DNA of 64,000 bases from Fusobacterium varium (GTDB taxonomy: Bacteria > Fusobacteriota > Fusobacteriia > Fusobacteriales > Fusobacteriaceae), in NCBI GenBank assembly GCA_002356455.1, contig AP017968.1:372001-436000 (forward strand), in the 5' to 3' direction. The notes beneath the pieces are model-generated. The model saw only the letters and a program-made list of their open reading frames with translations, did no database searches and had not been told where the DNA came from. Positions 12,686 through 32,138 of the stretch are shown one piece after another (positions within the stretch are counted from its first letter, which is position 1; each line of letters begins with the position of its first letter). The position numbers and the translations under genes were made by a program.

Positions 12686-12712
12686 AAACAGCTGATTGTT
12701 AATCAGCTGTTT
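12686..12712 (-). repeat. 3'-end palindrome of IS91-like copy 2
   Basis: AAACAGCTGATT and AATCAGCTGTTT form a perfect 12-bp stem with a three-base loop, overlapping the transposase stop codon. It is a candidate replication-origin end (oriIS-type) hairpin. It is absent from copy 1. Confidence 0.7.
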
Positions 12713-15440: not shown

Positions 15441-15463
15441 AAAAAGCTGCCAATAGGCAGCTA
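15441..15463 (-). terminator. Terminator of the 14-gene Ter operon
   Basis: On the minus strand GCTGCC and GGCAGC form a tight stem with a four-base loop, followed by TTTTTT. It lies about 20 bp after the last terD gene. Confidence 0.8.
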
Positions 15464-15482
15464 ATCATTGTTTAAAACTTTA

Positions 15483-16067
15483 TTATACATTTACACCATA
15501 GTTTTGACAAAGAGCTTTAAGTCCATTTTGATATCCTGCACCCACTGCATTAAATTTCCAGTCATTTCCATGTCTATAAATTTCGCAAACCACTATGGCT
15601 GTTTCAATAGAAAAATCTTCCATAAGATTAAATCTCAGCACTTCCTGTCCATCAGTATCAGTTTCATTTACCATTCTGGCTACTCTCACATAAGCATTTG
15701 ATACTTGACCAAAATTTTGTCTTCTGAATACTGCATCATGAATAGTTACTGTTATAGCTATTTTATGTATTTCCTGAGGAATTTTTCTGAAATCAATGAT
15801 AATTACTTCATCATCTCCATCGCCATCTCCAGTTAAATTATCTCCAGTATGAGTAACAGCACCATTATAAGCAGTAAGATTATTATAAAAAATAAAATCT
15901 TCATCTTTTAAAACTTTTTCATTTTTACCAAGTAAAAATGCTGAAGCATCTAAATCAAAATCATAACCGCCAGAATATTTATTAGTGTCCCAACCTAGTC
16001 CAATTAATGCCATAGTTATATTTTTATCAAGATTTACACGTTGTCCTTTTGATAAATTTACACTCAT
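15483..16067 (-). CDS. terD: TerD-family calcium-binding protein (distal copy)
   Basis: This 194-aa protein has a full TerD domain: [13 protein letters not shown] at the start, the acidic loop [11 protein letters not shown], and the second acidic site [15 protein letters not shown], both used for calcium in characterised TerD proteins. It ends with the usual [19 protein letters not shown]. It is the last gene of the operon, 19 bp after the P-type ATPase gene, and separated by three genes from the other three terD copies. An AAAGGGGA site lies before the ATG. TerD proteins are cytosolic or membrane-associated and take part in tellurite, envelope and phage stress responses. Confidence 0.93.
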
Positions 16068-16086
16068 TACATTTTCCCCTTTTTTT

Positions 16087-18732
16087 CTATTTTTTTATTA
16101 CAATTTTTTTTCTTATTATATCAACTGGTATAATTGTAAATGCCATAATAATTACTGCTGCCCATTCTTTTAAAGTTAAACCATAGCAGTTTAAGACAGC
16201 TCCTCCTAAGTATGTCATAATAACCTGTACAATTACAATAAGAATAATTATGTTAAGGAATCCTTTATTTTCAAAAATATTATCAAATAAATTAGTTTGC
16301 TCTGTTCTTGCATTGAAAGCATTAAAGACAGATATAAATATAAAGAAAGCAAAATATCCAGTCAGAAGATATTCATTATTTATTCCTGGTCTAAATAAAG
16401 CCTTTATTTGTGGTGTAAGAAGGAAGAACATACTTAGTATAAATGTCCAAATACTTCCTGTAAATATAGCACTCCACATATAGCTGCTGACAATATTTTC
16501 TTCTCTGCGTTTAGGTTTTTCCTGCATAAATCTTTTCAAAGCTGGTTCTCCTCCAAATGCCAGAGCTGCTAAAGTATCCATAACTAAATTTACCCATAAA
16601 ATTTGAGTAATTGAAAGTGGATTTTCCATTCCAAGTAAAGGAGAAACAAATGATACCATTACTGCAGCTACATTGATTGTAAGCTGAAATATTATAAATT
16701 TTCTAATGGAATTAAAAATTGTTCTTCCATAAAGAATAGCTTTTTCAATAGACATAAAGTTATCATCTAGGATAACAATATCTGAAGCTTCTTTAGCTAC
16801 TTCTGTACCACCACCCATAGCAAATCCAACATCAGCTTTTTTCAAAGCAGGAGAATCATTAACTCCATCTCCTGTCATTCCTACTACAAGATTCAGCTCT
16901 TGAGCTATTTTTACAAGTCTAGATTTATCACTAGGCAGAGCTCTTGACACTACTTTAATATTTTTCATTTGAGCAGCAATCTCATTATCTGTCATTTGAG
17001 CTAGTTCATCAGAAGTATAAACTAAATCTGTATCTTCAGTAAGAAGTCCAGCTTCTTCAGCAATAGCTACAGCAGTATCCTTTCTATCTCCAGTTATCAT
17101 TACTACTTGTATTCCTGCTCCTTGTACCTCTTTTATAGCAGAAATAGATTCAGGTCTTACTTCATCTCTAATACCTATAATACCAATTAAAGTACAATCT
17201 TCAATTTCTTTATCATCTTCATGTATTTTTTTTTCACAGCTTGCAAATGCTAATACTCTTATAGCTCTTCTAGCAAGCTCATTTATTATATTTTCTATTT
17301 TATCGTGGTCATTAAACTCTTTTTTCTCCCCTTCTTCAGTATAATAATATTTACATTTTGAAAGGAGTTTTTCAGGAGCTCCCTTTACTAATGTTATATC
17401 ACAATCTCCAGTTACAGAACAGGCAGAATATTTATTTGTACTATTAAATGGCAATGAACAGCAGACTTCAACATCCAAATCACAGCAGTTTTTTCCAACA
17501 AAGCCAAGAATAGCTCTTTCAGTAGCATTTCCTCCAACTATTTTAATATTATCTCCATCTCCTGTAATAAGGGCACTTGTATTTTTAAATATATTAAGAG
17601 AAAATATTTTTTTTAGTTCCTCAGAGATATGATCATATTTTTTAGTTTCCTTACCAGTTCCATCTACAAATAATATTGTTTCTAATTTTCCTTTTGTAAT
17701 AGTTCCTGTTTTATCTGAAAAAAGGATATTTAAGCTTCCAGCAGTTTCAATACCTACTATTTTTCTTACTAGTACATTGTCTTTCAGCATTTTAGACATA
17801 TTCAATGCTGATACAATAGCTATCATTAATGGAAGACCTTCTGGAACTGCCATAACTATAATGATAACTGCAAGCATAACAGCATGAATCAAGTCATTCA
17901 CTAAAACCATCCAGTTAGAACAATAAGCAATAATTCTTGCCATTTCAAAGCCATTATGTATTACAATTCTTTGAAATAAAAGTGCTATTGCTATTGCTAT
18001 ACCACCAATATACCCAAATTTACTTATATCATCTGCAAGTTTTCCAAGTTTTAATTTTAATGGAGATTCCCTATCATCATCTATTTGCAGCTCACTTGCT
18101 ATTTGACCATAAACACTCTTATCTCCAACTACAGTAACTTCCATCACAGCATTTCCAGAGCAGACAACTGCACCTCTGAATACTTTATATGGATTTAAAA
18201 AGTCCATTGAAGCTTCTTCATCTTTATAATTTTCTGGAAATGGTTTTTTAGTGGCTTCCTTAGTTTCGCCATTTAAAACAGATTGATCTACTTTAATAGT
18301 TCCATCTGTAATTATTCCATCTGCTGGAATTTTATCTCCAGATTGGAGTAAGACCCAATCTCCTACCACTATATCATTGATAGATATTTCAGTTACTTCA
18401 TTGTTTCTATATACTTTGCACATTATTCTTGAAGCTTCTTCTTGAAGCTTCTGGAAAGCATTTTCATTTCTATATTCGGAAAATGTAGAAACAAATGTAG
18501 CAAGTATGACAGCTACAGCTATACCAAAAGGCTCATACCATTCTGTTTGCCCCATGAATGTAAAAATAACATTGATAATTAGAGCTACACACAATATTTT
18601 TATCATTGGGTCGCCAAAGTTATCCTTTAGTTTATCAAAAAAACTTTCTGTTTCCTGTTCTGTAATTATGTTGCTACCAAATTTTTCTTTTGATGCTAGA
18701 ACTTCTAAATCCGTTAATCCCATCTTTTTCAA
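16087..18732 (-). CDS. Calcium-type cation-translocating P-type ATPase
   Basis: The 881-aa protein is a type II P-type ATPase of the PMCA/SERCA-like group. It has an N-terminal cation-ATPase domain, the actuator loop with [10 protein letters not shown], the phosphorylation site [10 protein letters not shown] (aspartate near residue 340), the hinge [21 protein letters not shown], and about ten membrane segments, including NMVLVN-type helices and the C-terminal set after 690. The predicted start is TTG at 18732, with AAGGAGG ten bases upstream; an ATG nine bases later is the alternative. It most likely exports calcium. Its place between the HAD gene and a terD gene ties calcium flux to the calcium-binding TerD proteins. 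Confidence 0.9.
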
Positions 18733-18764
18733 AATATTTTATCCTCCTTAGATGTTTTTTCTTC

Positions 18765-19514
18765 TTATTCTTGAAAAACTTTTTTTACTATTTGCAGCAT
18801 TTTGTCTGAAAAAAGCTCTTTTTCAGATATAGCATATTGTTCCTTTTGTCTAGATAAAAATTTTTTTAATTGTTTTGGAAAAATAGATATATCTGCTTTT
18901 TCCAACATTGGAATATCCATTTCACTATCTCCTGCACAGATTACTGTATCAGCTTTTAAAAATTTTTTTAATCTTTCTAAAGAAGTTCCCTTATTCAATT
19001 CTTTGGGAAATATATATAATTTTTCTCCATGATTGTGTATATCTACAAGTTCTTGATTTAGATTATTTTTTAATTTTTTTATGACTGTTTCTATATTAAA
19101 ACTTTTAGTAAATATAAAAAGTTTATCTACTTTTCTAACTTCAAAATATATATTTTCATCTTCTGTCAGCAGTTTTATTCCTTTTTCCAGTTCTTTTATA
19201 GATTTTACTGATATTTCTAATGATTTTTGGTACCATTCCTTAACAATTTTTCCGCTATAAAGAAGAATTCCCCCATTGGCTGCCAGAGCATACTCTGGCT
19301 GATAATCTTCAAAAAATTTTATCCTTTGATATTGTTCAAGAGAACGTGTTGTTATAGGGATAAAATTCAGTTCTTTTAGTATTTCATGAGAAATTTTAGT
19401 CATATAGGAAAGTTTTTTTCCATTTTTTGTTTCAACAAGTATTTTGTCTCTTCCTATATCTTTTTTATATGAATATATTAAAGTATTGTCTAAATCTGTT
19501 GTAAAAATTTTCAT
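18765..19514 (-). CDS. HAD-superfamily phosphatase of the Ter module
   Basis: The 249-aa protein has HAD motif I in FTTDLDNTLIYS (D7 and D9), a Cof/sucrose-phosphatase-like cap, and motif IV in VICAGDSEMDIPMLEKAD. The ATG at 19514 is preferred over an upstream TTG at 19529 because an AAAGGA site sits six bases before it. The ribosome site overlaps the end of the ATP-grasp gene, so the two are coupled. In Ter biosynthetic modules a HAD phosphatase is thought to dephosphorylate a sugar- or nucleoside-phosphate intermediate. The substrate here is unknown. Confidence 0.85.
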   Translation of the reverse strand: MKIFTTDLDNTLIYSYKKDIGRDKILVETKNGKKLSYMTKISHEILKELNFIPITTRSLEQYQRIKFFEDYQPEYALAANGGILLYSGKIVKEWYQKSLEISVKSIKELEKGIKLLTEDENIYFEVRKVDKLFIFTKSFNIETVIKKLKNNLNQELVDIHNHGEKLYIFPKELNKGTSLERLKKFLKADTVICAGDSEMDIPMLEKADISIFPKQLKKFLSRQKEQYAISEKELFSDKMLQIVKKVFQE

Positions 19515-19525
19515 TTTTATTCCTT

Positions 19526-20539
19526 TCAAATAAGTATAGGCGTTTCTATATAAGATACTTTTGTTTCTTTTTTATTAATTTTCCAAATTTTGTCTATACC
19601 TAAAAGTTGATTTACAGATATATTAGGAATATTGATATTCGCTGCAAGACATGTATAATGTATTCCTCCAGACATTCTGGTATTTATTTCTAATAAATAA
19701 GGAATACCATTGTCGTATTTAAATTGAATATTGCAGGGATGTTCTACTCCATATTTCTTAAAAAAGTCTTTGCATATATCTAGAATTTCTTTGTCATATC
19801 TTATTATTTCTGTTCTTGTCAGTGTTTTTACTCTTGGAATAGAAATTAAACCATTTTTTGTTTTTAAACAGTCTACACTTACTTCTTCACCTTCAAGATA
19901 TGGCATCAGCATTATTTCAGCAGTATTTTTTCTTTTTTTTAAAGAATTATATACTTCTTCTGATGTAACTTTAAGCCCTTTTCTTATTAAAAAAATATCA
20001 GCATCCTTCATAGAATCATCAATTATTCTAAAACTTACAGCGCCTTCATCCTCAACAAATTTAAAACAGATTTTTTTATGATTTGCTTTTAGTTTTTGAT
20101 AAGCCTCAATAAATTTTTCAGCTGTATTCACTATATAGTATTCAGGAATATTTCCAATTTTTAATGTTTTAAATAATTCATATGTATTTTTTTTATTGTT
20201 AAGCTGTTTCATTTTTTCAAAATTTTTTTCTGCAAGAACTTTAACAGATATATTCTCAAATCTTTTTATATTTTTAACTATGGAGAGCTGTTTTTTTCTT
20301 GGGATAAATATATTTACAGAATGTCTTTGACAAAATTCTAAACAATACTGCACATACTCTTCATCACTTAGAAAATCAGGTTCTTTTTCCCAGTAATCAC
20401 ATACTGTTTTCATAACATTTTCTTCATTTCCATTAGTACCTATTATATAAAATTCAGTATTATTATCATCTTTTATCATATTAACCATATGATAAGCAGT
20501 ACTGAACCAGTGATTGAACCAAATAATGACTTTTTTCAT
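19526..20539 (-). CDS. ATP-grasp ligase of the Ter module
   Basis: This 337-aa protein is an ATP-grasp enzyme. An N-terminal pre-ATP-grasp part is followed by CFKFVEDEGAVSFRI (ATP lid), MLMPYLEGEEVSVDCL, and the metal-binding end PYLLEINTRMSGGIHYT. Such enzymes join a carboxylate to an amine or thiol through an acyl phosphate. ATP-grasp genes recur next to TerD, phosphoribosyltransferase and HAD genes in predicted Ter biosynthetic modules. A TTGGAGG site precedes the ATG. A strong stem-loop (20555-20579) separates it from the upstream terD gene. Confidence 0.87.
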   Translation of the reverse strand: MKKVIIWFNHWFSTAYHMVNMIKDDNNTEFYIIGTNGNEENVMKTVCDYWEKEPDFLSDEEYVQYCLEFCQRHSVNIFIPRKKQLSIVKNIKRFENISVKVLAEKNFEKMKQLNNKKNTYELFKTLKIGNIPEYYIVNTAEKFIEAYQKLKANHKKICFKFVEDEGAVSFRIIDDSMKDADIFLIRKGLKVTSEEVYNSLKKRKNTAEIMLMPYLEGEEVSVDCLKTKNGLISIPRVKTLTRTEIIRYDKEILDICKDFFKKYGVEHPCNIQFKYDNGIPYLLEINTRMSGGIHYTCLAANINIPNISVNQLLGIDKIWKINKKETKVSYIETPILI

Positions 20540-20554
20540 TATTCCTCCAATTTA

Positions 20555-20579
20555 GAAGGGAGCAGCATATGCTCCCTTC
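20555..20579 (-). repeat. Intra-operon stem-loop between terD and the ATP-grasp gene
   Basis: GAAGGGAGCA and TGCTCCCTTC form a perfect 10-bp GC-rich stem with a five-base loop, without a T-run on the minus strand. It is more likely an mRNA stabiliser or processing site than a terminator. Confidence 0.6.
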
Positions 20580-20584
20580 ATTTA

Positions 20585-21181
20585 TTATTTATATCTAGCA
20601 GCAAGTTCACCAATACCATCATCAGTTGTTCCTTGACCTATTGCATTGAATTTCCATTCTTCATTATGGCGATATACCTCTCCAAATATCAGAGCAGTAC
20701 ACCCGCTATAGTCATCTGTCAGATTATATCTGCACATTTCTTTATTTGTTTTAGTATCAATTAGTCTTATAAAAGCATTTTTTATCATTCCGAAATGCTG
20801 ATTTCTATCTTTAGCTTTAAATATATTAACAACTATTACTATTTTGTCATAATTTTGAGGGATTTTTTTTAATTCAACAATAATTTGTTCATCATCTCCC
20901 TCGCCCTCACCTGTAAGATTATCTCCTGTATGCCTTACAGAATCAGTATAGTGTTTCAAATTTCCAAAATAAACAATATCTTTTTTATCTATCATTTTAC
21001 TATTTTGAAGAAGCATTGCTGTAGCATCACAATCTATATTGGCTTTTTTGCCAAACATTGAAAAAAAACCACCATTATCTTTTGAAGCTTGATCCCATCC
21101 AAGTCCTAATATAATTTTGTCTAAAGTGCTATTATCTTTTGTAAGGCTTATCTTTTGTCCCTTTTGTAAACTTATTGACAT
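20585..21181 (-). CDS. TerD-family protein, divergent copy
   Basis: The 198-aa protein opens SLQKGQKISLTKDN and has the second calcium loop [15 protein letters not shown]. The first acidic loop differs from its neighbours: an insertion GGFFSMFGKKAN precedes NIDCDATAMLL instead of the usual [10 protein letters not shown]. This makes it resemble TerX/TerZ-type members. It lies 17 bp after the next terD copy and carries a GGAG site. The change may alter calcium affinity. Confidence 0.9.
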   Translation of the reverse strand: MSISLQKGQKISLTKDNSTLDKIILGLGWDQASKDNGGFFSMFGKKANIDCDATAMLLQNSKMIDKKDIVYFGNLKHYTDSVRHTGDNLTGEGEGDDEQIIVELKKIPQNYDKIVIVVNIFKAKDRNQHFGMIKNAFIRLIDTKTNKEMCRYNLTDDYSGCTALIFGEVYRHNEEWKFNAIGQGTTDDGIGELAARYK

Positions 21182-21198
21182 AATATTATTCTCCTTTT

Positions 21199-21780
21199 CT
21201 AATCAATGTCTATTCCATAGTTGATGCAAAGAGCAGCCAGACCTCCTTGATATCCGCTTCCTATTGCATTAAATTTCCATTCACCATTATTTTTATAGAG
21301 TTCTCCAAAGACTGCTGCTGTTTCAATTGAAAAATCTTCTCCTAAATCATATTTCAGTATCTCATTATTTACATCCTCATCAACTATTCTTATATATGCA
21401 TTTGATATCTGTCCGAAATTCTGCCTTCTTTCTTCCGCTTCATATATAGTAGCTGTAAATATTATTCTTGTAATATTTTCAGGTACCTTAGAAAGATCAA
21501 TGGATATTTGCTCATCATCGCCATCACCGTCACCAGTCCTATTATCACCCATATGAATAACAGAACCACTGTTATGCTTCAAATTGCCATAAAAAATAAA
21601 ATCACTTTGTGAAGTTACCTTACCATTTTCTCCTAGAAGAAATGCAGCAGAATCTAAATCAAAATCTCCACCTGTATCAAATTTATTAGTATCCCATCCA
21701 AGTCCTACTATTAATTTTTTTAACCCAGGATTATCTTTTGTAAGGCTTACTTTTTGTCCTTTTTTTAAACTAATTCCCAT
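21199..21780 (-). CDS. terD: TerD-family calcium-binding protein
   Basis: This 193-aa protein has a complete TerD domain with [18 protein letters not shown], the acidic loop [28 protein letters not shown] and a final [28 protein letters not shown] site precedes the ATG. It sits between two other terD genes, with gaps of 17 and 23 bp, as in tandem terD arrays elsewhere. Confidence 0.94.
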
Positions 21781-21803
21781 TTGTTTACCTCCAAAATTGA
21801 AAA

Positions 21804-22385
21804 TTATGCTACTTCTATTCCAAAGTTAGCACAAAGAGCTGCCAACCCTCCTTGGAATCCGCTTCCTACTGCATTAAATTTCCATTCTCCAGCATGTCTG
21901 TAAATTTCTCCAACTACAACTGCTGTTTCAATTGAGAAGTCTTCTCCAAGATCGTATCTGATAAGTTCTTGATTATTGCTTTCATTCACTACTCTTATAT
22001 ATGCGTTTGATATTTGTCCAAAATTTTGTCTTCTCGTTTCTGAATCATAAATAGTAACAGTAAATACAACTTTTTCTACATTAGCAGGGATTTTAGATAA
22101 ATCTACCTTTATTTGTTCATCATCGCCATCTCCTTCACCTGTTAAGTTATCCCCCATATGTTCTACTGAACTGCTTTTATGAATAAGATTACCATAAAAA
22201 ACAAATTCTTCTTGTGAAGGAACTTTTCCATTTGCACCTACTAAAAATGCTGCTGCATCTAAATCAAAATCAGCTCCACCATCATATTTGTTAGTATCCC
22301 ACCCAAGACCAATTACAAGATTTTTTAAACCAGCATTTCCTTTTGTTAAGTCTACTTTTTGCCCTTTTGTTAAATTTATTGGCAT
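21804..22385 (-). CDS. terD: TerD-family calcium-binding protein
   Basis: This 193-aa protein begins [17 protein letters not shown] and keeps [27 protein letters not shown] and [16 protein letters not shown]. The ATG at 22385 is chosen because AAGGAG lies nine bases upstream; an ATG at 22394 is directly attached to that site and too close. It follows the telA gene by 36 bp and is the first of three tandem terD copies. Confidence 0.94.
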
Positions 22386-22421
22386 ATTAATCATCTCCTT
22401 GATTTTTATAGTAAAAAAATA

Positions 22422-23552
22422 TTACTTATTACCAAACATTTTATTAAAATCATCTTTTATAGCTTTTAAACGTGCTTGATCTTCAATACGTTTTCTAGAA
22501 GCATTTTCTTGTATTTGCTTTGTTTCTTCTATTCCTTTTACAATAGTTTTCCAAGTTGTTTCTAAAGTTTCTATTTTTATAGAACTTCCAGAAGCCAATT
22601 GTGCTGCAAGTTTAGCTTGTTCAGAAGTGTTTTGAGCATTTTTAATCAACATCTCATTTGTTTTTTCATCAAGAGCAGCCATTGCTTCAGCTTGTATACG
22701 CTGTCTCTTCAGTAGTATAGCTTGTGAAAGAGCTTGTTTAAATATAGGGAGTGTAATTATAAAAGCTGAGTTTATTTTTCTTATAAGGTTTACATTGCTA
22801 AATTGCATAGTTTTTAGCATAGGGATAGACTGCATAGCCACATTTTCTGCTATTCTTAGGTCTTGTGTTCTTTGCTCCAGCATTTGCTTTGCTTGTACTA
22901 AACTTGTTAATTCAAATTGAATACTTTTATCATTTGACTTTTCCATTTCTTCAGTCCTTTGAGTGATAAAAGTATCTATTTCCTTTATTCCCTGTTCTCC
23001 TGCCAGAATATATTTTAAAAGTTCATGATAATAATTTACATTTGTTTGGAACATTGTTTCAAGTTTTTTATTTGACTGTTTGATTTCAACTTCATATTGT
23101 TTTAGTTTTACATATATTTTATCTATTTCATCTCCCATTGTATGGTATTTATCTAATATTTTTTCAAGTTGTTTTTTCAAATTTCCAAATATTCTTTCTA
23201 AAAATCCTGGTTTTTCTCTAATTTCATCAATATCAAACTTACTCATTATTTTTCCAAGAAGTGTAAGCATTTCTCCAGTATCATTAATTTGAGCCATATT
23301 CATACTATTTAATACAGCATCAGAGCATCTAGATATTTCTTCAGCAACTTCTCCACCGAAAGAGATGATAGTTTCAGTATCATAAACAGATATTGAACTT
23401 ACAAGATTATCTACTTCACGTGAATCTACAAGTTTTTGAGCCATTTCATTTCTATCAGCCTGTATATTAAATTGTTTTACTTCAGCTTCAACTATAGTCA
23501 TGTTATTTTCATCAACAACTATAGGTTCTGTTGAATTCATTTTTATTCCCAT
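22422..23552 (-). CDS. telA: Toxic anion resistance protein, TelA family
   Basis: The product, about 376 aa, is a long helical protein of the TelA/YceH family. It has the early region QKLVDSREVDNLVSSISVYD, the FLERIFGNLKKQLEKIL block, and the late VNLIRKINSAFIITLPIFKQAL region. It is mostly coiled coil with no membrane segment. TelA members are linked to tellurite, nisin and other envelope-stress tolerance. Several start codons cluster after GAGGGG; ATG 23552 has the best spacing, but 23561 and 23540 are possible. It lies between YceG and the terD array, as in Bacillus yce-type operons. Confidence 0.9.
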   Translation of the reverse strand: MGIKMNSTEPIVVDENNMTIVEAEVKQFNIQADRNEMAQKLVDSREVDNLVSSISVYDTETIISFGGEVAEEISRCSDAVLNSMNMAQINDTGEMLTLLGKIMSKFDIDEIREKPGFLERIFGNLKKQLEKILDKYHTMGDEIDKIYVKLKQYEVEIKQSNKKLETMFQTNVNYYHELLKYILAGEQGIKEIDTFITQRTEEMEKSNDKSIQFELTSLVQAKQMLEQRTQDLRIAENVAMQSIPMLKTMQFSNVNLIRKINSAFIITLPIFKQALSQAILLKRQRIQAEAMAALDEKTNEMLIKNAQNTSEQAKLAAQLASGSSIKIETLETTWKTIVKGIEETKQIQENASRKRIEDQARLKAIKDDFNKMFGNK

Positions 23553-23588
23553 TATAATCATACCCCTCTTTTTTATTTTTATAGTTTT

Positions 23589-25862
23589 TTAATTCATAAG
23601 GTTAAGAAGCGATCTTAACCCAAATCTTTCTTTTTTTATATCAAATTTTTTCTTTTCCTTGTCATAAACAGGTATTTTCATATCATAAAGATATTCCCCA
23701 ATTTGATGTTTTACAAAGATATTTTTTTCAAAATGTCCATCAACACTTTGATACCCTGTTGGAACAAAAAGAAGAATATCAAATCCTAAGAATTTTAAGA
23801 AAGCTGTAATTATTCCATCTTCCTTACTTCCTATTTGTTCAGTGGTATCAATTATTACTAATTTTGGTATTTTTTTAGTAAAATCATATTTTTGTATAAG
23901 TCTTAATATTTCTATATCAAGATTAAGTATTGTATCCAATATTGTAAATTCTATACCATTGCTGAAAGTTCCAGGAATAATACCACTATCTAATAATTGC
24001 TGAGCTTTTTCAAAAATATAATTCTGCATTTCATCTCTGATAAATTTATAATTATATGAAGGATGTTTTTTTATTGTTTCCACTTTTATTTTTTTATTTT
24101 TTATAAATGAAACTACAGATTGCCCCAAAGTTTTTTTATTTTTTTCATTTATATATGGAAGATTTTTTATAAATATTCCTTCAGGCTGTAAAAATTGTTC
24201 TATTATTTTCCAATAATTATTTTTATCTTTATTTGGAACACCACATATTTTAGAACATATTACTGGAACCATTACTCTGTCAGTAAGTATTTCAAAATTT
24301 TGTCTGTATTTAGCTTCCTGATTCCATAATATTCCAATTTCTTCATAGGTAGTTTTTAAAGTAACTGGAATAGCATTTTTAAATTGATTTTGTCTGAATA
24401 AGCCAGAATCTTGATATAAAAGCGAATCTAAATCTCGTTCAGCATTATAAGCTGTTGTCCCAAAATTTATATTTTCTAGTTTTTTAGGAAATTTTCCTAA
24501 TGGAATAGAAAATTCATTTATTTCTTCAAATAAAAGTTTATCGTTTATACTGCATTCTAAAGTTTTGTCAGGACAAAATATTATAACATCAACTGGAATT
24601 CTTGCTAGAAGTCTTATAAACAGCTTTTCATTTTCATTTTTACAGCTGCCATAATAAATAAATACAGGATATTTTTTTAAATCTATTTTTTTGAATAGTA
24701 CAGAAATATATCTATTTATCCAACATAAAAGGATTACTCCGCTATTGCTTAATTTTTGTAGCCTTTCATCTTTATTTTCTGTCATTAATTCAATAAAAGC
24801 TTTCTTTAAAAGAAGTTCAAGCTCAGAATTTTGTTTAAAAGAAATATTATTAGAAAGCTCATTTATCAGTTCTATAGAATTTTGATGTAGTTTTTTCTTT
24901 ATTTGCTGTACCTCTAACCCATCAGGATTATGTATTCCATCTTCTATGATTAATACTTCTCTTTCACTGCTGCTCAGTTTTAATTTCCATTTAAATAATT
25001 CATTCATAAAATTATTTTTATCTTCAACACCTGTCATTTTAACAAACATATTATAGTAATAATTATCTTTACTTCCCCTCATATTTGAAGATTTTAAAGA
25101 ATCTTCAAATATATATCCAGCAGTAATCCAAGTGTTTGTACTCATTATTCCTTGAGGCTGAGCTATTTTTATCTGCTTTTTCTCATTAGGGTGACTATAT
25201 TTTTTTATTTCTAGTGCTGTTACAGAAAAATCTTTTGGAAATGGCTGAGGATTATCATTTGGTATTATATAAGATAAAGCTGAGCTTCTATCTAAATTTA
25301 TATCTTCTGCAGTTTGAAGCAAAATGATATCACATCCTGCTTTGGCAAGTATATTCAGCATTTTTAATTCGTGATTGCTTGCATTTCCGTCAAAAAGAAT
25401 TTTAGGAACATTATCCTTTCCCAATGCTTTTAACACAGATTGAAATCTATAATAGAACCAACACATATATTTTACATAAGTATTTTTTAAGATATTAATA
25501 TTTTTCCCCTCTTTTTCCAATACTTTTAATTCTTCAAAAAGAGATTCTATTATTATTGTAATTTGAATTTCTGAAAGTTGAGGTATCCATTTTTTCATAG
25601 TTTTTTCCATGAATGCTTTATCCATTATGAAGTTTTTTCCAGTCATTTCAATAAAATAATTTATTCTTTCCTGAGTTGGGTTTTGAATATTATTTTTTAT
25701 GTAGACTCCACATATTTTTACTTGTTCTAAGTACTTAAAGAGAAAATCTTCTATTTTTATACTGTATGAAGTTACTCTGTAAAAATATATGCCTTTGGGA
25801 CTTCTTTCACTATATTTTTTAAAATAATCATCTGTATTGTTAAATTTTATCTTTTCTGCCAT
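23589..25862 (-). CDS. yceG: YceG-family protein with two internal repeats
   Basis: This 757-aa soluble protein belongs to the YceG family found with TelA, TerD and phosphoribosyltransferases. Two equivalent segments are visible. One contains MCWFYYRFQSVLKAL followed by PKILFDGNASNHELKML and GCDIILL. The second contains LCWINRYISVLF followed by PVFIYYGSCKNENEKLF and VDVIIF. Each looks like a helical lead-in plus a Rossmann-like strand-helix-strand. The start is supported by GAGGAAAA before the ATG. The family was proposed to act in the Ter biosynthetic module, but its reaction is unknown. The same type of domain recurs in the first gene of the operon. Confidence 0.85.
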   Translation of the reverse strand: MAEKIKFNNTDDYFKKYSERSPKGIYFYRVTSYSIKIEDFLFKYLEQVKICGVYIKNNIQNPTQERINYFIEMTGKNFIMDKAFMEKTMKKWIPQLSEIQITIIIESLFEELKVLEKEGKNINILKNTYVKYMCWFYYRFQSVLKALGKDNVPKILFDGNASNHELKMLNILAKAGCDIILLQTAEDINLDRSSALSYIIPNDNPQPFPKDFSVTALEIKKYSHPNEKKQIKIAQPQGIMSTNTWITAGYIFEDSLKSSNMRGSKDNYYYNMFVKMTGVEDKNNFMNELFKWKLKLSSSEREVLIIEDGIHNPDGLEVQQIKKKLHQNSIELINELSNNISFKQNSELELLLKKAFIELMTENKDERLQKLSNSGVILLCWINRYISVLFKKIDLKKYPVFIYYGSCKNENEKLFIRLLARIPVDVIIFCPDKTLECSINDKLLFEEINEFSIPLGKFPKKLENINFGTTAYNAERDLDSLLYQDSGLFRQNQFKNAIPVTLKTTYEEIGILWNQEAKYRQNFEILTDRVMVPVICSKICGVPNKDKNNYWKIIEQFLQPEGIFIKNLPYINEKNKKTLGQSVVSFIKNKKIKVETIKKHPSYNYKFIRDEMQNYIFEKAQQLLDSGIIPGTFSNGIEFTILDTILNLDIEILRLIQKYDFTKKIPKLVIIDTTEQIGSKEDGIITAFLKFLGFDILLFVPTGYQSVDGHFEKNIFVKHQIGEYLYDMKIPVYDKEKKKFDIKKERFGLRSLLNLMN

Positions 25863-25899
25863 TTTTCCTCACATTCCACACAGTCATTCTCTTTTATTT

Positions 25900-26952
25900 T
25901 TATAAATCTGATAGATTTTTTATTATTCCACAGGCTTTATAATTATTCAAAGGATAATATTCTATAGGGACATTTTTCTCTTGAGCTAATCTATATAAAT
26001 GTTGTAAAACAGGATCATTTTTATACTTTTCACTTATTAGAAGCTTCCAAGGAACTCTTCTGAGCAATACTCTAGTAGCCTCTCCTATTCCCGGCTTTAT
26101 AAAATTAATCTCTTTTATTCCAAATTTTTTTCCAATATTTAATACTTCTTCAATACCATTTTTATCTGTTGCATTATTTATATTTTTTATGTTAAAATCA
26201 AAATACTTTTCTACCTCTTTTATAAATTCATAAGAAACATCTTCTTTTATTAAATCTGAATAATAAACTGCCCCATGAAAATCATTTTCAGTAATTATAT
26301 CCTTTCTTAAAAAAGTTCTGCTGATAAGACCTGAAACTGTACTGTTAAGACATGAACTTGGAATCAATATATCTTCATGTGTTCCACATAATTCTGTAAT
26401 ATTGGCAGGATCTGATAACACAGCAAGTTCTGTGGAAACATCCTTATAATTTTCAAGAGATTTTTTTAATTCTGTAAGAATTGCTCCCTTTCCTATCCAG
26501 CCATCTACAAATTGAATATCTTCTGCTTTGTGTCTTTCAAGAATATATTTCATAGCATTGTGGTCTATTTCTTTTCCTCTAATTATTGATATAGAATAAT
26601 GTTTAAGATTTTTCATTCCATATTTTCTATTGAGATAATGCTTTATCAGTATTCCAACAGGAATTCCAGCCCTTGCCAGAGAAACTAACACTACATTTTC
26701 TTCTTTTATTTTGTATATTTTTTCTGCTGTAAGACATACTGCTTCTGCTGTTTGCTTTGAATAATTTTTTAAGGCTATGTCATACATTTCCATATATTTT
26801 TTAGTAGGTTTATATTCTACAGGAAGCATTTCAGAGTAATGTGTTCCTTCTTGTATTTTTTTTTCTCTTTCCTCAGTTGATATGGGCATTACCATATTGG
26901 TAATATCTTTCAATAGTAGAATTACATCTTCAGTATTATAAGAAGTTTTCAA
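25900..26952 (-). CDS. StiP-type / phosphoribosyltransferase-like protein of the Ter module
   Basis: The 350-aa protein matches the family often named cysteine protease StiP. It has an N-terminal phosphoribosyltransferase-like part with VLVSLARAGIPVGILIKHYL, then HYSISIIRGKEIDHNAM, FVDGWIGKGAI, and a C-terminal part with INFIKPGIGEATRVLLRRVP. The protease name is historical; in Ter operons it has been reinterpreted as a phosphoribosyltransferase with an RNA-binding-like domain. The start is TTG at 26952, overlapping the TGA of the upstream gene, with GGAGTG eight bases before it. It is the second of two adjacent phosphoribosyltransferase-type genes. Confidence 0.83.
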   Translation of the reverse strand: MKTSYNTEDVILLLKDITNMVMPISTEEREKKIQEGTHYSEMLPVEYKPTKKYMEMYDIALKNYSKQTAEAVCLTAEKIYKIKEENVVLVSLARAGIPVGILIKHYLNRKYGMKNLKHYSISIIRGKEIDHNAMKYILERHKAEDIQFVDGWIGKGAILTELKKSLENYKDVSTELAVLSDPANITELCGTHEDILIPSSCLNSTVSGLISRTFLRKDIITENDFHGAVYYSDLIKEDVSYEFIKEVEKYFDFNIKNINNATDKNGIEEVLNIGKKFGIKEINFIKPGIGEATRVLLRRVPWKLLISEKYKNDPVLQHLYRLAQEKNVPIEYYPLNNYKACGIIKNLSDL

Positions 26953-28091
26953 TCTAAATCACTCCATTGAAATATAGAGATGTCGTTACATTCATGTTCT
27001 TTCAAGGCAGCTATCAAACTTTTTATTCCTTCGCCTTTTGTTGATTTTGAGTCATGAATAATAACAACTTTATCATATTTCTTTAAATTATATAAATAGA
27101 CTACTCTATTTTTATCATAAAGACTTCTCAACTCATGCCTTAAATAAAGAGGGTAGTCTTTTTCTCCGCTTGGAAGAATAGGACTTCTGGTAACAGCATG
27201 AAATTTTACTTCATTACATTTGTATTCTTTTTCAAGCTTTTCTCCTGTTATCATAGCTGGGTACATAAATTCTTCTGTTCCCAGTACAAGAACATCTTTA
27301 TTTTCAAATTCTTCTTTTTTTAATTTTTTTATTATTAATTCAGCTAGTTTATTGCAGTTTTTTTCATATACTCTGCTGTCTGCACCTAATTTAGCATCTA
27401 TATATTCGTTGAAGGAATATTCTTTAATTAAAAAATTTTCTGTAAATTTTAGATTATATCTTCTTTCGTTTTCATAACTGTACTTGTTTAATTGGTCATC
27501 ATAATTTTCTGCTGATAGTTTTATTTCATATATACATTCTATTTGAAATTCGTTGAATTTCTCCATATTTTTTTTATTCATACCATTGAGAATAGAAATT
27601 ACTCCAAAATTTAATTTCTTTTTTGAATATTGCTCTTCTAAAATATTTTTTATATTCCAAATAGTATTTCCTGTGGTTATTTCATCTTCAGCAAATATTA
27701 TTCTATCAGTCTTTTCAATCATTTCTTTTAGATTATTTTTTACAAGCTTTTGTTCTACAGCATGACTGTGAGCTTCTGAAAAAAATAGATATTCACTATT
27801 TTTTATAGTTTCTCTAGTAGTATGTATATATTTTGTTCCTTCTGGACATTGGGCTGCTATAGTTGCACCAATAGCAGTAGCCGTTTCTGCAAAACCTATT
27901 ACTAAGAATTTTTCATTTGGATATTTATTTATTAATTTATTAGCTAATTTTTTAAATAATTCTAATGCTGCTGTTGGACTTACAGGTATATGTTTTCCTT
28001 GCAGAGGATTTACCAAAAGAAAGGTTCTCTTGTTATTGTTGTCCCTTTTAGCTACTTTTACAAGATCCTCTTTATTATATATTTTCTGCAT
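26949..28091 (-). CDS. Phosphoribosyltransferase with C-terminal TRSP-type domain
   Basis: This 380-aa protein has a phosphoribosyltransferase core. The leading strand reads EKFLVIGFAETATAIGATIA and the PRPP loop is FAEDEITTGNTIWN. A second half contains VLVLGTEEFMYPAMI, a RSPILPSGEKDYPLYLRHEL motif and VVIIHDSKSTKGEGIKSL. This matches the PRTase-TRSP proteins of Ter modules, predicted to make a nucleoside-like compound. It begins three bases after the lyase gene and ends overlapping the StiP-type gene, so the three are translationally linked. Confidence 0.87.
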   Translation of the reverse strand: MQKIYNKEDLVKVAKRDNNNKRTFLLVNPLQGKHIPVSPTAALELFKKLANKLINKYPNEKFLVIGFAETATAIGATIAAQCPEGTKYIHTTRETIKNSEYLFFSEAHSHAVEQKLVKNNLKEMIEKTDRIIFAEDEITTGNTIWNIKNILEEQYSKKKLNFGVISILNGMNKKNMEKFNEFQIECIYEIKLSAENYDDQLNKYSYENERRYNLKFTENFLIKEYSFNEYIDAKLGADSRVYEKNCNKLAELIIKKLKKEEFENKDVLVLGTEEFMYPAMITGEKLEKEYKCNEVKFHAVTRSPILPSGEKDYPLYLRHELRSLYDKNRVVYLYNLKKYDKVVIIHDSKSTKGEGIKSLIAALKEHECNDISIFQWSDLD

Positions 28092-28094
28092 TTT

Positions 28095-29069
28095 TTATTT
28101 CACTCCATATGTTTCTGCTAGTATCATTATTTTTTCAGCCCAATTTAAATGAACTTTTACTTCATTCATTCTTTCACCAGAACTGCTTTTTCCTACTGCA
28201 AGTACACTATTTTTCCAGTTTGTTATTTCAAGTGCATCTTCATAATCTGATTGATCTACTATTAAGTTATCATTCACTATAGTTATCTGATTAGGATGGA
28301 TGACAGTTTTTCCTATAAACCCGTTGAGTTTATCCAGTTGAACTTCTTTTGCTAAACCTGTTTTCCATTCATCATTTTTACTGGCAAAATATTCCCATAC
28401 AGGACCAGAAACTACATATTCTCTTGAGAAGACAGTAAGAATATCACTTAATATATTTCTTACAGGAGTTATATCGTAAATACTTTGAGTATAATTGCGA
28501 CGTACTTTGAATTCTTTACAGAAATCATTACCTCCCACTCTTATGTTAAGCACCATATCTTTTACTTCATTAATTTTCTTTTTGAGTTTATATAAATATT
28601 CACTTCTGGTATCTAATTCAATAATTTCTGAACTTTCCAGTATAGGCATCATATATATTGTTTTTTCAATTTCTTTGTTGATTTCTTTCATATATGAATT
28701 GTATTCATCTGCACATTCCAAAGAATATTTTGGAAAGATAAAACCTGTGAATAGAGTGCTATATTCTTTTATTCTTCTAAAAATAGTCAGTATCTGTTCA
28801 GGTTTTCTTACTCTGATAAATATTTTTGGGTAGCTATTCCATTGAGGATTATTTTTTTTATATGTTTCTAATTCTTTGAAAGTTTTTATTACTTGTTCCT
28901 CAGCTGTTTCAACAATATCATCACTTATGGAATCTTCTAAACAAAGAGAAAGAGAATACCTGCCTTTAACTTTTTTTTCTATTATCATTTCAGATATTTT
29001 ATCATTAATAGCAGGAGAATACATTAATGCTCCAACTGTATAGGCCATTTTTTCTCTATTGTCTAACAT
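28095..29069 (-). CDS. HpcH/HpaI/citrate-lyase-like C-C bond lyase of the Ter module
   Basis: The protein is about 324 aa from the preferred ATG at 29069, which has TTGGAGGAAATA directly upstream. An ATG at 29114 would overlap the preceding gene's end. Features of the aldolase/citrate lyase barrel are PAINDKISEMI, CLEDSISDDIVE (metal-binding acidic pair), FIRVRKPEQILTI, FIFPKYSLECA, PILESSEIIEL, NIRVGGNDFCKEF and a late IGKTVIHPNQITIVND. The members of Ter operons are thought to split or form a C-C bond in a precursor that is then joined to phosphoribosyl. The substrate is unknown. Confidence 0.88.
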   Translation of the reverse strand: MLDNREKMAYTVGALMYSPAINDKISEMIIEKKVKGRYSLSLCLEDSISDDIVETAEEQVIKTFKELETYKKNNPQWNSYPKIFIRVRKPEQILTIFRRIKEYSTLFTGFIFPKYSLECADEYNSYMKEINKEIEKTIYMMPILESSEIIELDTRSEYLYKLKKKINEVKDMVLNIRVGGNDFCKEFKVRRNYTQSIYDITPVRNILSDILTVFSREYVVSGPVWEYFASKNDEWKTGLAKEVQLDKLNGFIGKTVIHPNQITIVNDNLIVDQSDYEDALEITNWKNSVLAVGKSSSGERMNEVKVHLNWAEKIMILAETYGVK

Positions 29070-29089
29070 TATTTCCTCCAAATAATTTT

Positions 29090-29746
29090 TTAATCTTTGC
29101 TGCCTTCTTGCCATTTGAATCCCCATCCATATTGTTTATCACAATCTTGATGTCCTTTATGAAATGTAACCAGCTTTTTAACTGTTATCGAATCTTGACC
29201 ATCAAATAACAACTCAGCTATTGCACAGAAATTTCTATGATCACTTTGTTTTCCCATTTCTACAACTATACTTTCATTTCCAGGAACCTGAACAGTAACT
29301 ACAGCATTTGTTGCAGTCCAATTAGGAGCACCTTCATAGATAAAAGTATATATAATAATTTTACGAATATTATTTATTCCTTTAGGGTTTACATAAATAT
29401 TTTCTCCAGATTCCCCACCTGCATTTCCTCTGTCATCTCCCTTGTGCCAGATGAATGGAGCATTGCTGTAGCAACCTTGATTTGTTCTTTGCTCTCTGTT
29501 TCCTCCTCTTCCTTGAGAAAACTGCAGTCCATCAATTATCATTTTTTCCCCATTATTGAGCTCATAATAACATCCTAAATCTAAGTCTATTTCTTGATTT
29601 CCACCTAAAAGCGAGGCTAAAAAACCTTTCTTTTTAGGTTCTTGAGACCAATTTAGATTAATTACGATCTCTTGTTTTCCAGCCATATGCTCTTTGCTCA
29701 AACTGATTTTGTGCTGATCTCCAAATTTTTCTAATTTTACTGCCAT
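29090..29746 (-). CDS. TerA/TerD-superfamily protein
   Basis: The 218-aa protein is a divergent TerD-superfamily member resembling TerA. It has EIVINLNWSQE, the acidic loop EIDLDLGCYYEL, IDGLQFSQGRGG, a glycine-rich HKGDDRGNAGGESGEN site in place of the HTGDNxTG loop, and AIAELLFDGQDS. A GGGGGA site precedes the ATG. It lies 26 bp after the protease-fusion gene and ahead of the lyase gene. Calcium binding is likely but less certain than for the four TerD copies. Confidence 0.87.
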   Translation of the reverse strand: MAVKLEKFGDQHKISLSKEHMAGKQEIVINLNWSQEPKKKGFLASLLGGNQEIDLDLGCYYELNNGEKMIIDGLQFSQGRGGNREQRTNQGCYSNAPFIWHKGDDRGNAGGESGENIYVNPKGINNIRKIIIYTFIYEGAPNWTATNAVVTVQVPGNESIVVEMGKQSDHRNFCAIAELLFDGQDSITVKKLVTFHKGHQDCDKQYGWGFKWQEGSKD

Positions 29747-29772
29747 TTTCTTCCCCCTTCACTATTTTTTAT

Positions 29773-31191
29773 CTATATAAAACCTTTGATGAAACCCAAT
29801 ATTGTTTTATGATTTACAGCTAAATTTATATTTTGTCCTTTATCAAATCCTGCTGTAATTACTCCTATTAATTTGCCATTTAAATCTAGAAGAGCTCCCC
29901 CTGAACTTCCATGAGAAATAGGAGCTGTAAATTGGATCATATATAAATCATCAATCATACGAAATCCTGATATTATTCCATCAGACACAGAATTAAAAAG
30001 ACCTAATGGACTTCCAATTGCTATTACTTTTTGGCCTCTTACCAGTTCTTTAGTATCTTGATAAAGCTTAATGTATTTATGAGATTTTTCTATTTTTATT
30101 ATTGCTAAATCATTTAAATCATGATATTTAACAATTTCATTAGTGAAATATATCTTATCATCATTTTCCAGTTGTACTCCAAAATAATATCCATTTGAAA
30201 TAACATGAAAATTTGTAAGTATACTCCCTTTATCATTAATAATGACTCCTGAACCAGTTTTAATACATTCTTTTTTTCTATTGAATACACTTATCATCAC
30301 AACTGATGAAGCTAACCTTGCAAGTTTTTCATATGATACTTCTTTTGTTTTATTTTCTTCAGCAGTATTTATTTCTTTTTTTTGTTCTGTTTTTTCCATT
30401 GATTCATTTCTTTTTAGGTTTACTTTAACTGTATTATTTGTATTGATTGTGCTGTTTTCTTTAGTGTGATTAACTTCAGCTTTATTTTTTCTATTTTTTG
30501 CTAATAAATCTTCAATGAAAATATCTAATTTTTTACTATTTTCTTCTTCATATAAAGATGATAGTTTTAATAAATTTTCTGGTATATTTATTTTTTTCTT
30601 TTCTGAGTCTAAATAAATGACATCACAGCCTAAAAGCACCAACATATACAAGAAAAGATATTCTTGAATCTTTAATTCCCCTAGATATATAGCTTTAGGA
30701 AAGCCTTTCATTTCTTCAGTATTTTTAAATATTTTTGGAAAATATTTTCCTATCCAATAGAGGAGCTTAATTCCAAAATTTTTTGTTATTGATTCATTTT
30801 GATTTTTTATTTTAAAATATATTTCAATTATTTTTCTATAAGTTTCTTTTAATGTATATTCCCAACACTTATCTTGAAATTTAAATGGGAACTTTAAAGC
30901 ATCTAATTTTTCAACATCATGATATAATTTTTTCCATTCCTCATAAATAATAGAATATTTTTCAATTAAATTGTTTTCTATAAAGTTGTCTAAATTTTTT
31001 TCAATAAAAGCTTCAGGTAAAAGCCCAGAAATTTCTTCTATATAGTTTTTCTCATATTTTATTCCAAGATATCTAAAAAAATAGACATCTTTTTTATAAT
31101 TAAAAAAACGTCCTGAAATATTTTTAAATGATAAAATAGAAGTCAAGGCTATTGGATTTATTCTAACTTCTAATTTTTGTATTTGATTCAT
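29773..31191 (-). CDS. YceG-like domain fused to a trypsin-like (S1C) serine protease
   Basis: This 472-aa protein has two parts. Residues 1 to about 240 resemble one repeat of the YceG protein encoded downstream (LLYWIGKYFPKIF, then PKAIYLGELKIQEYLFLYMLVLLGCDVIYLD). A charged linker follows, rich in N, K, T and E. The C-terminal 190 residues form a trypsin-fold protease with catalytic histidine in TNFHVISNG, aspartate in HDLNDLAIIKI and serine in ISHGSSGGALLD. No signal peptide or membrane segment is seen, so it should act in the cytosol. No PDZ domain is present. It is the first gene of the 14-gene operon. The ATG has no close ribosome site; a GGGGGA lies about 35 bases upstream. Confidence 0.8.
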   Translation of the reverse strand: MNQIQKLEVRINPIALTSILSFKNISGRFFNYKKDVYFFRYLGIKYEKNYIEEISGLLPEAFIEKNLDNFIENNLIEKYSIIYEEWKKLYHDVEKLDALKFPFKFQDKCWEYTLKETYRKIIEIYFKIKNQNESITKNFGIKLLYWIGKYFPKIFKNTEEMKGFPKAIYLGELKIQEYLFLYMLVLLGCDVIYLDSEKKKINIPENLLKLSSLYEEENSKKLDIFIEDLLAKNRKNKAEVNHTKENSTINTNNTVKVNLKRNESMEKTEQKKEINTAEENKTKEVSYEKLARLASSVVMISVFNRKKECIKTGSGVIINDKGSILTNFHVISNGYYFGVQLENDDKIYFTNEIVKYHDLNDLAIIKIEKSHKYIKLYQDTKELVRGQKVIAIGSPLGLFNSVSDGIISGFRMIDDLYMIQFTAPISHGSSGGALLDLNGKLIGVITAGFDKGQNINLAVNHKTILGFIKGFI

Positions 31192-32138
31192 AATTTTTGC
31201 TGAATAAATAACTGCCTATCAGCTTCCCCCTTTTTTAATAAAACTTGTAAAGTAATATTTTTTCTAAAAAATAAAATTAATTATGTTATTATTAATTTCG
31301 AATTTAAGATATATTTTGTAATTTTTTAAATGATGAAAAATAAAAAAAATATTTTACAAACATTTAATATTTTTTTATAATATAAATTTTTAATCATACT
31401 AAAATTACTAACTATTTATGATAGAAAACACTTTTAATTCTAGTATTTGTTTTGCCTTATATTAATTATTATCATGTATAAATAATAGCATAAAAAGTAT
31501 TTATTTCAAAATAATAAATTCATAAAAAATTGAGTTTACAAAAAATGTTAGATAAAGATTTAAAGGTAAACTATAGTTAACGTAATAAAAGTTGAATTTA
31601 AAGAATTCTTTGAAGAAATATTGTATCAGTAGAAATTAATTGTATGTTTTAAAATAAAAATACAATTAATATATTAAATAACAAATTGGAAATAAAAATA
31701 TGAAATATTAATTGTTAAAAAATTTAATGAATAAATATGCAAGACATAAATTAACTTTTTTATTTGCAGGATTTTAGAATAAAATTAAAAAATAAAATTA
31801 AGTATAAATTTTAAAAGTTAAAAATTATTAAATATAAAAATGATGGAAGAAGGAGTTACTGAAGTTTTAGTTTTATAAGGAAATTTACTTTTAGAAAGAT
31901 AAGGATAAAGAAGTGTTGGAATAAGAATAAAAATTAAATTATATTTATCATAAATCTAGAAGATTAATTATGCAAATTAAAAAAATTAAACCCATGAAAT
32001 TTTAAGAAAAATATTCTAAATTTCATGGGTTTTTTAATTTTATATAAATGTATCTTCTAAATTATTTTAATACTGGAAGAGAGAATTTGGAAAAGTAACT
32101 CAACAGCAATAAAAATTTTTTAGAGAAAACTTAAATTA
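31192..32138. other. Long AT-rich gene-free stretch upstream of the Ter operon
   Basis: About 950 bp separate the divergent-facing ends here. The right end (31260-31192, minus strand) must hold the Ter operon promoter, but I cannot point to clear -35 and -10 boxes. A terminator sits at 31989-32031. Between 31300 and 31980 no open frame or RNA gene is recognisable, and the base composition is extremely AT-rich. Confidence 0.5.
31989..32031 (-). terminator. Terminator downstream of the flavodoxin-type gene
   Basis: AACCCATGAAATTT and AAATTTCATGGGTT form a perfect 14-bp stem. It serves the minus-strand gene ending at 32139. The plus strand also shows a T-run after the stem, so it may work in both directions. 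Confidence 0.75.

Follow-up and report, generated by a model that had tools for sequence, protein, structure and literature searches.

A PMCA-type P-type ATPase in a Ter stress operon of Fusobacterium varium and its recurrence in ter clusters

The DNA analysed here, a 64,000-nucleotide stretch of the Fusobacterium varium genome (contig AP017968.1, positions 372,001 to 436,000; hereafter the window), carries a 14-gene operon of the Ter stress type, in which TerD proteins, TelA, YceG and a set of predicted biosynthetic enzymes are combined with a P-type ATPase of the P2B (PMCA) type. Comparison with related genomes gives good support to the pump being a component of the Ter cluster, as it recurs beside terD in genome samples drawn with and without reference to Ter genes. 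The pump and TerC were found together in none of the ter clusters examined, and we regard it as an evenly balanced proposition that, in this Ter stress module, a PMCA-type Ca2+ pump takes the place of TerC as the exporter of divalent cations.

Recurrence of the pump in ter clusters

In the class to which the window belongs, 98 genomes were searched for the C-C lyase of the operon, TerD being searched there in the window genome only. Lyase of the Ter type (>300 bits) was found in four genomes, with all remaining lyase matches below 62 bits, and all four carry the pump within the cluster. It is the last gene but one in the window and in a genome of the same genus (G027), and the first in G052 and G088, hence gene order differs while membership of the cluster holds. 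Further loci were collected by scanning genome contigs with an alignment of StiP, another operon protein, and taking the best 80 of 316 relatives, whose titles are mostly of Lachnospiraceae with a few of Treponema. The pump was present at 33 of the 36 assessable loci, the other three (L063, L087, L101) lacking it despite at least 1 kb of sequence beyond the terD run. Among the rest, 17 end too near terD and 27 have neither terD nor a PMCA-type pump in their sequence; two of the 17 (L048 and L100) showed the pump beside ter genes once more genome sequence was taken.

Because a search that starts from Ter genes favours such loci, two genome samples with less bias were drawn. In the first, 393 genomes taken evenly from the class of Blautia (centre genome G098), TerD was detected at E 1e-15 in 18 genomes, and in 13 of these a PMCA-type pump lies next to terD; leaving out the centre genome makes it 12 of 17. 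Random placement would give approximately 0.19 of 17, a figure that presupposes genes placed at random in genomes that are not related, and that is to be read as an order of magnitude. The second sample covered the phylum of the same genome and gave TerD in 26 of 398 genomes, four of them already seen; the cluster holds the pump in eight of the 22 new genomes, TerC in ten, both in none and neither in four.

Across all ter loci, 56 different PMCA-type pump open reading frames (ORFs) were collected, with duplicates and two heavy-metal ATPases excluded and the window included. In 44 of these the pump comes directly after a co-directional terD gene, no more than 400 nt away (median gap 82 nt), and 37 of the 44 preceding terD genes are of the subtype of TerD3, the third terD gene of the window. 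Counting either flank, it abuts terD in 52 ORFs, and in four it does not. A chance neighbour was rejected on this recurrence (12 of 17 against the random expectation; 52 of 56 abutting terD). The original prediction, made from the letters of the window alone, had assigned a calcium-type pump to the module, which the four class clusters and the StiP loci bear out; it had named as decisive against it a pump found in this position in no other genome, and the synteny searches found the opposite (33 of 36 StiP loci, 12 of 17 terD genomes). Heavy-metal P1B ATPases (ZntA- or Cu-type) were also seen beside PRTase_2 genes at some StiP loci (L073 6132-8780, L097 6035-8758, L114 6057-8645), L114 possessing a PMCA pump in addition and L096 and L116 giving similar weak matches.

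A first tree of 74 pumps, with unlinked rows taken only from genomes with Ter clusters, placed 30 of 34 Ter-linked pumps in one clade (30 of its 31 rows linked) apart from other PMCA pumps, the second PMCA pump of the window genome (L006) falling outside it. Close relatives of the window pump (E 1e-140) occur in 24 genomes of the 393-genome sample, and nine of these are TerD genomes in which the match is the ter-cluster pump. Two observations weigh against a pump subfamily exclusive to Ter: the other 15 of the 24 have no TerD match, and one unlinked copy (L220) lies in a genome that also holds a linked pump. L220 and L231 (G099:C17) represent this close unlinked relative, of 978 amino acids. 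A second tree (64 rows, quick method) was therefore read with the 40 unlinked rows cut to 13, the 15 TerD-less relatives and two plasmid pumps added, and the plasmid pump L251 excluded. Here the TerD-less pumps form two clades within the subfamily, one containing L220, and the Ter-linked rows form groups of 8 (including the window), 16 and 6, all linked. A pump exclusive to Ter was rejected on account of these two unlinked clades, and the sequences indicate a subfamily that is partly, not solely, Ter-linked. Grouping of all 30 linked rows in one clade, and with it a single origin of these pumps, was not rejected (approximately unbiased test, p 0.457). Two further linked lineages (L152/L153 and L146/L162) lie outside the main subfamily, hence they suggest separate recruitment of other PMCA pumps.

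The window pump also matches 132 phage records (best identity <60%) and five plasmid records. No ter gene is named in three plasmid stretches with the pump, two of which were also checked by sequence. One of the phage records, 4.5 kb long, carries no annotation. Phage carriage of the whole module was unsupported: among the matches listed, viral contig L278 carries the lyase, phosphoribosyltransferase (PRTase), StiP, HAD and ATP-grasp genes and has no terD or pump within 10 kb.

The operon itself behaves as a unit, since the block from terminator to promoter (15443-31544) is 96.2% identical in G027, against a common flank that shows 76–84% identity and lies in the opposite orientation relative to the block. 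Two other loci compared between the window genome and G027 show 92.5% and 83.8% identity. In G027 the tmRNA gene (ssrA) stands just past the promoter end of the operon (L043 19855-20000), and the surroundings of tmRNA genes are a place where mobile islands often sit. A search for terminal inverted repeats of the module gave AT-rich pairs only, none read as a border. The unit-like behaviour of the block, which lies near ssrA in G027, together with the variable position of the pump and the heavy-metal P-type ATPases that adjoin some clusters, would fit co-carriage without functional coupling, in which stress islands gather useful genes and co-transcription would provide no more than joint induction by stress. 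We consider this quite unlikely, however, as the same type of pump lies beside terD in many genomes and belongs to several lineages, two outside the main subfamily, a pattern that chance gathering would rarely produce again.

The pump, its candidate cation and TerC

The pump scored 604.4 bits against the PMCA-type profile TIGR01517 (cut-off 507.05), compared with 422.7 bits against the PMR1-type profile (cut-off 798.3), which we take to represent Ca2+/Mn2+ pumps; the SERCA-type cut-off was also missed. Plant calcium ATPase 8, PMCA1 and Listeria lmo0841 were the best-scoring solved structures. As in LMCA1/lmo0841, PMCA and plant calcium ATPase 8, the P2B profile is accompanied by the DKTGT phosphorylation motif, PEGLP and the N/D residues, and transmembrane helix 6 (TM6) reads NLVMDTLA. 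Unlike those PMCA-type ATPases, the window pump sits in a ter operon. Eukaryotic PMCA-type pumps carry a long regulatory tail, which the 881-residue window protein lacks. E298 (of PEGLP), N687, N715 and D719, which we take from SERCA and PMCA work to coordinate Ca2+ at the only such site that PMCA pumps have, are invariant in all 30 Ter-linked relatives of the main subfamily. The same residues are found in 15 of 15 unlinked rows and in 14 or 15 of 15 TerD-less rows, hence these residues are no marker of a function in Ter. From these features we infer Ca2+ as the substrate, with Ca2+ as a first guess for the cation and Mn2+ as the second.

Calcium may also connect the pump to its neighbours. 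Two Ca2+ sites with listed residues are described for Klebsiella TerD in the accessible part of PMC8779313. Aligned to this protein, all four window TerD proteins keep the Ca1 positions D40, L41, D42, D78, N79 and E89, with a Cys at position 41 of TerD3 as the sole exception, and the Ca2 positions align sensibly only with a shift of one residue, whereupon they are acidic in all four. In the same alignment, the TerA-like protein retains the majority of the Ca1 positions and has lost most of those of Ca2. Furthermore, PMC8123226 cites Daigle 2015 for a link between a Streptomyces TerD-domain gene and calcium homeostasis.

The absence of TerC and TerB, noted in the original prediction for the window, extends to the whole genome: the best TerC match there reached 26.7 bits (cut-off 27.8) and TerB gave no match. 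TerC exceeded the cut-off in two of the 98 class genomes, one of them G052. Among the 18 TerD genomes of the Blautia class, G254 has TerC inside a ter cluster without a pump. The ten TerC genomes of the phylum sample likewise have TerC inside a pump-less ter cluster, and TerC was found nowhere in the eight pump genomes of that sample. Over the 40 TerD genomes compared, the ter cluster holds the pump only in 21, TerC only in 11, neither in eight and both in none (Fisher p 3.3e-5, and 4.5e-5 once the centre genome is dropped, by a test that ignores shared ancestry). For these counts mostly one ter cluster was taken per genome, with further terD loci unseen.

Several observations count against a simple exchange of pump and TerC. 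The pump genome G052 has a borderline TerC (28.2 against 27.8 bits) off the contig of its cluster, one of the 11 genomes behind StiP loci has another (G103, 29.1 bits), and G367 combines a pump in the ter cluster with a clear TerC outside it. The eight clusters with neither gene indicate that a cluster exporter is not obligatory or that other exporters exist. On a tree of TerD3 from 41 clusters (three of 44 lacked a TerD3-type gene), the pump and TerC labels are strongly clustered, leaving two independent pairs on starred branches, hence a tree-aware test cannot decide and the exclusivity may follow taxonomy. The suggestion that the pump may replace TerC is supported by the pattern of the 40 genomes and falls short of proof, given shared ancestry, the eight clusters with neither gene and a transport activity that is predicted only. 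From this pattern we infer that the pump stands in for TerC.

One alternative takes Mn2+ as the main substrate, which would make the pump a direct equivalent of the TerC proteins MeeF, MeeY and Alx, perhaps loading exported enzymes with Mn2+ or removing its excess under oxidative stress. TerC proteins do handle Mn2+: according to the available part of PMC10550928, MeeF and MeeY of Bacillus subtilis export or deliver Mn and work with the secretion machinery, and a title in its reference list names an Mn2+/Ca2+ ATPase transporter of Streptococcus that is controlled by a riboswitch for Mn. The lack of any examined ter cluster with both pump and TerC would agree with such equivalence. The profile scores (PMCA type over its cut-off, PMR1 type below) and the TM6 motif speak against it, as does the Rfam scan, in which no family reached the gathering score in the window, leaving a Mn riboswitch, and control by any known riboswitch, unsupported; seven related loci gave just one T-box and one tmRNA. 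We hold a Mn2+ pump to be unlikely.

With Ca2+ as the preferred cation, the following mechanism is proposed. A single cluster that recurs across phyla unites the genes for the pump, TerD, TelA, YceG and the biosynthetic enzymes, usually with the pump beside terD. The pump would export Ca2+ using ATP and the TerD proteins would bind Ca2+, as conserved residues and published relatives suggest. Near the membrane, TerD with TelA and YceG may sense or buffer cytosolic Ca2+ and work with the pump, and pump and TerD together would reset a Ca2+ or Mn2+ imbalance driven by stress. The lyase, PRTase, StiP, ATP-grasp and HAD proteins may make a nucleotide-like signal or effector, and in other ter operons TerC would do the cation-export part. 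A broader reading, which we put forward as tentative, is that Ter is a system of divalent-cation homeostasis with an interchangeable exporter slot (TerC for Mn2+ or a PMCA-type pump for Ca2+), gated under stress by Ca2+-binding TerD and the nucleotide-like product.

Operon layout and biosynthetic enzymes

Features of the operon are listed in Table 1, with gene families assigned by Pfam and NCBIfam profiles. As originally described, 14 ORFs run on the minus strand from 31191 to 15483 with short gaps or overlaps and one terminator at the end (overlaps of -37, -4 and -4 nt, all other distances 3 to 45 nt), and the P-type ATPase lies between HAD and a terD gene by both gene order and profiles. The layout, promoter, terminator and conservation of the block also support an operon-like single unit, as far as sequence can indicate one.

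Table 1. Genes and signals of the Ter operon, with positions in the window
Feature	Position	Strand	Basis
Probable operon promoter, TTGAAA-16-TATTAT, TG before second hexamer	31482..31509	-	sequence and conservation in G027
Gene 1: YceG domain (residues 35-208) fused to HtrA-like trypsin domain (313-444)	29773..31191	-	profiles
TerA-like divergent TerD-fold protein	29090..29746	-	profile, 19.8 bits, below cut-off
C-C bond lyase, TIM barrel (PF15617)	28095..29126	-	343.6 bits
PRTase_2 + TRSP	26949..28091	-	profile
StiP (PF11202) + PELOTA_1: PRTase-like fold, C-terminal L7Ae-like RNA-binding domain	25900..26952	-	profile, predicted fold
YceG protein, three YceG_bac stretches	23589..25862	-	302.7 bits
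TelA	22422..23561	-	327.8 bits
TerD1	21804..22394	-	TerD profile
TerD2	21199..21780	-	TerD profile
TerD3, subtype usually preceding pump in other genomes	20585..21181	-	TerD profile
25-nt palindrome, terD3/ATP-grasp gap; strong, no T run on minus strand	20555..20579		
ATP-grasp of Ter operons (PF15632)	19526..20539	-	profile
HAD-IIB (Cof-like) phosphatase	18765..19529	-	profile
P2B (PMCA-type) P-type ATPase, 881 aa, TTG start	16087..18732	-	TIGR01517
TerD4	15483..16067	-	TerD profile
Intrinsic terminator, operon end: hairpin + T run	15445..15462	-	sequence

The four TerD proteins (248.6 to 289 bits, cut-off 25.3) are the only TerD family matches in the 4.12 Mb genome and, like TelA, agree with the prediction. 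The TerA-like protein, at 19.8 bits against the TerD profile, is below the same cut-off and hence counts only as a divergent TerD relative. The single YceG named originally is present but has a second beside it: as gene 1 is a fusion of YceG and trypsin domains, the latter with H, D and GSSGG serine motifs visible in the sequence, the operon holds two YceG proteins and a protease. The TTG start of the pump has AAGGAGG just upstream.

The promoter-like site lies within a block of approximately 45 nt that is identical in G027 amid diverged surroundings, although the region as a whole is not enriched in such sites (109 against 114.9 in shuffles). Directly upstream of gene 1, 44 nt (31192-31235) are also identical in G027. 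A GGGGG stretch here is distant from the ATG, and a small hairpin in the interval (fold -5.9 kcal/mol) could place a ribosome site beside the start of gene 1. The palindrome at 20555-20579 is found in G027 as its reverse complement (L043 8120-8190), as if flipped. At the corresponding place in G052, of the same family as the window genome, stands a terminator-like hairpin with a T run (L046 15130-15170), hence the genes downstream of it may be expressed apart. Near the operon end, the window carries a Y2 transposase of the IS91 type (12711-13919) in two ORFs, a zinc-binding piece and the main domain. Rhomboid protease and AIM24-domain genes recur in related ter clusters (L067 14604-15191, L265 9996-10646, L173 1013-1699, L253 4174-4830), and a rhomboid protease gene is also present among the ter genes of G862, one of the clusters with neither pump nor TerC.

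All members of the predicted biosynthetic set were found by profile, namely the C-C lyase, PRTase_2-TRSP, StiP-PELOTA, ATP-grasp and HAD proteins. Ter systems with a biosynthetic module were reportedly treated by Anantharaman et al. in 2012, with a fuller proposal for a nucleoside-like product. PMC7824862 names PRTases and HAD among the Ter proteins for which a nucleoside-like signal is the predicted product, and the lyase, PRTase, StiP, ATP-grasp and HAD proteins of the operon match a set predicted to yield such a product.

StiP was one of two proteins first described as phosphoribosyltransferase-type. Its predicted model (predicted local distance difference test score, pLDDT, 86.9) resembles PRTases such as PyrR and HPRT (Z ~8.6 to 10, the best among single-domain proteins), which makes that description fair for the fold, although Pfam presently names PF11202 StiP, cysteine protease. 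The top two rows of the fold comparison belong to a capsule-synthesis multienzyme (Z 10.9 and 10.4) rather than to a PRTase, and a Foldseek search with the model found nothing at E 0.001. The invariant C201 falls in the loop that the model predicts with the lowest confidence. Both the fold comparison and a profile search relate the C-terminal domain to RNA-binding proteins of the L7Ae/L30e type. StiP is thus likely to have a PRTase-like fold. No solved relatives of the lyase and PRTase_2 proteins were found by sequence, and the YceG fold had no clear match (predicted template-modelling score, pTM, 0.41; best Z 7.3).

A nucleotide signal could also serve defence, with the enzymes making it on invasion by phages or plasmids and the pump, protease and TelA/YceG acting as membrane or killing effectors. 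PMC7824862 describes a proposal that Ter acts on phages or plasmids entering the cell and produces a signal of nucleoside type, and the YceG-protease fusion of gene 1 would suit such a role. When ten of the 14 proteins were scanned against PADLOC-DB (the pump and three TerD left out), however, only the protease domain of gene 1 matched (RT-Protease_XI), and defence alone does not explain a recurrent cation pump; we view an anti-phage or anti-plasmid system as improbable.

Relation to known Ter systems

The window shares with Ter systems that have a biosynthetic module the TerD set, TelA, YceG, lyase, PRTase/TRSP, StiP-PELOTA, ATP-grasp and HAD, but differs in that its genome has no TerC or TerB and that the operon includes a P2B pump as well as a fusion of YceG and protease. 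The enterobacterial operon terZABCDEF likewise contains several paralogues of TerD together with a relative of TerA. This tellurite operon has terB and terC, both absent from the window genome; the two are reported as essential for tellurite resistance in the available part of PMC8123226. The membrane protein of the B. subtilis yce operon is TerC (MeeF), a Mn2+ protein, whereas that of the window is a P-type ATPase. The B. subtilis genes yceC to yceE are of TerD type, and yceG and yceH encode YceG and TelA. According to the accessible text of PMC10550928, meeF belongs to a constitutive operon, yceCDE-meeF, that is further induced by stress sigma factors.

The nearest published case is that of the Jug huge phages (PMC12363816, in the part available), in which terD and a calcium P-type ATPase, both highly transcribed, occur in one genome. 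There the two lie in separately transcribed regions and that part of the account describes no biosynthetic module, whereas the window has both in one cluster with the module. In the literature searched, no report was found of the pump as a member of a ter cluster, although Anantharaman et al. 2012 may mention one.

The role of ter genes beyond tellurite has long been open. Their function beyond this resistance is described as little known in PMC8123226. The pump links the reported Ca2+ binding of TerD to a concrete membrane partner and, as a recurrent member of ter clusters whose chemistry is known and which is easy to assay, it offers a handle on whether TerD controls a Ca2+ pump and on the possible interchange of pump and TerC.

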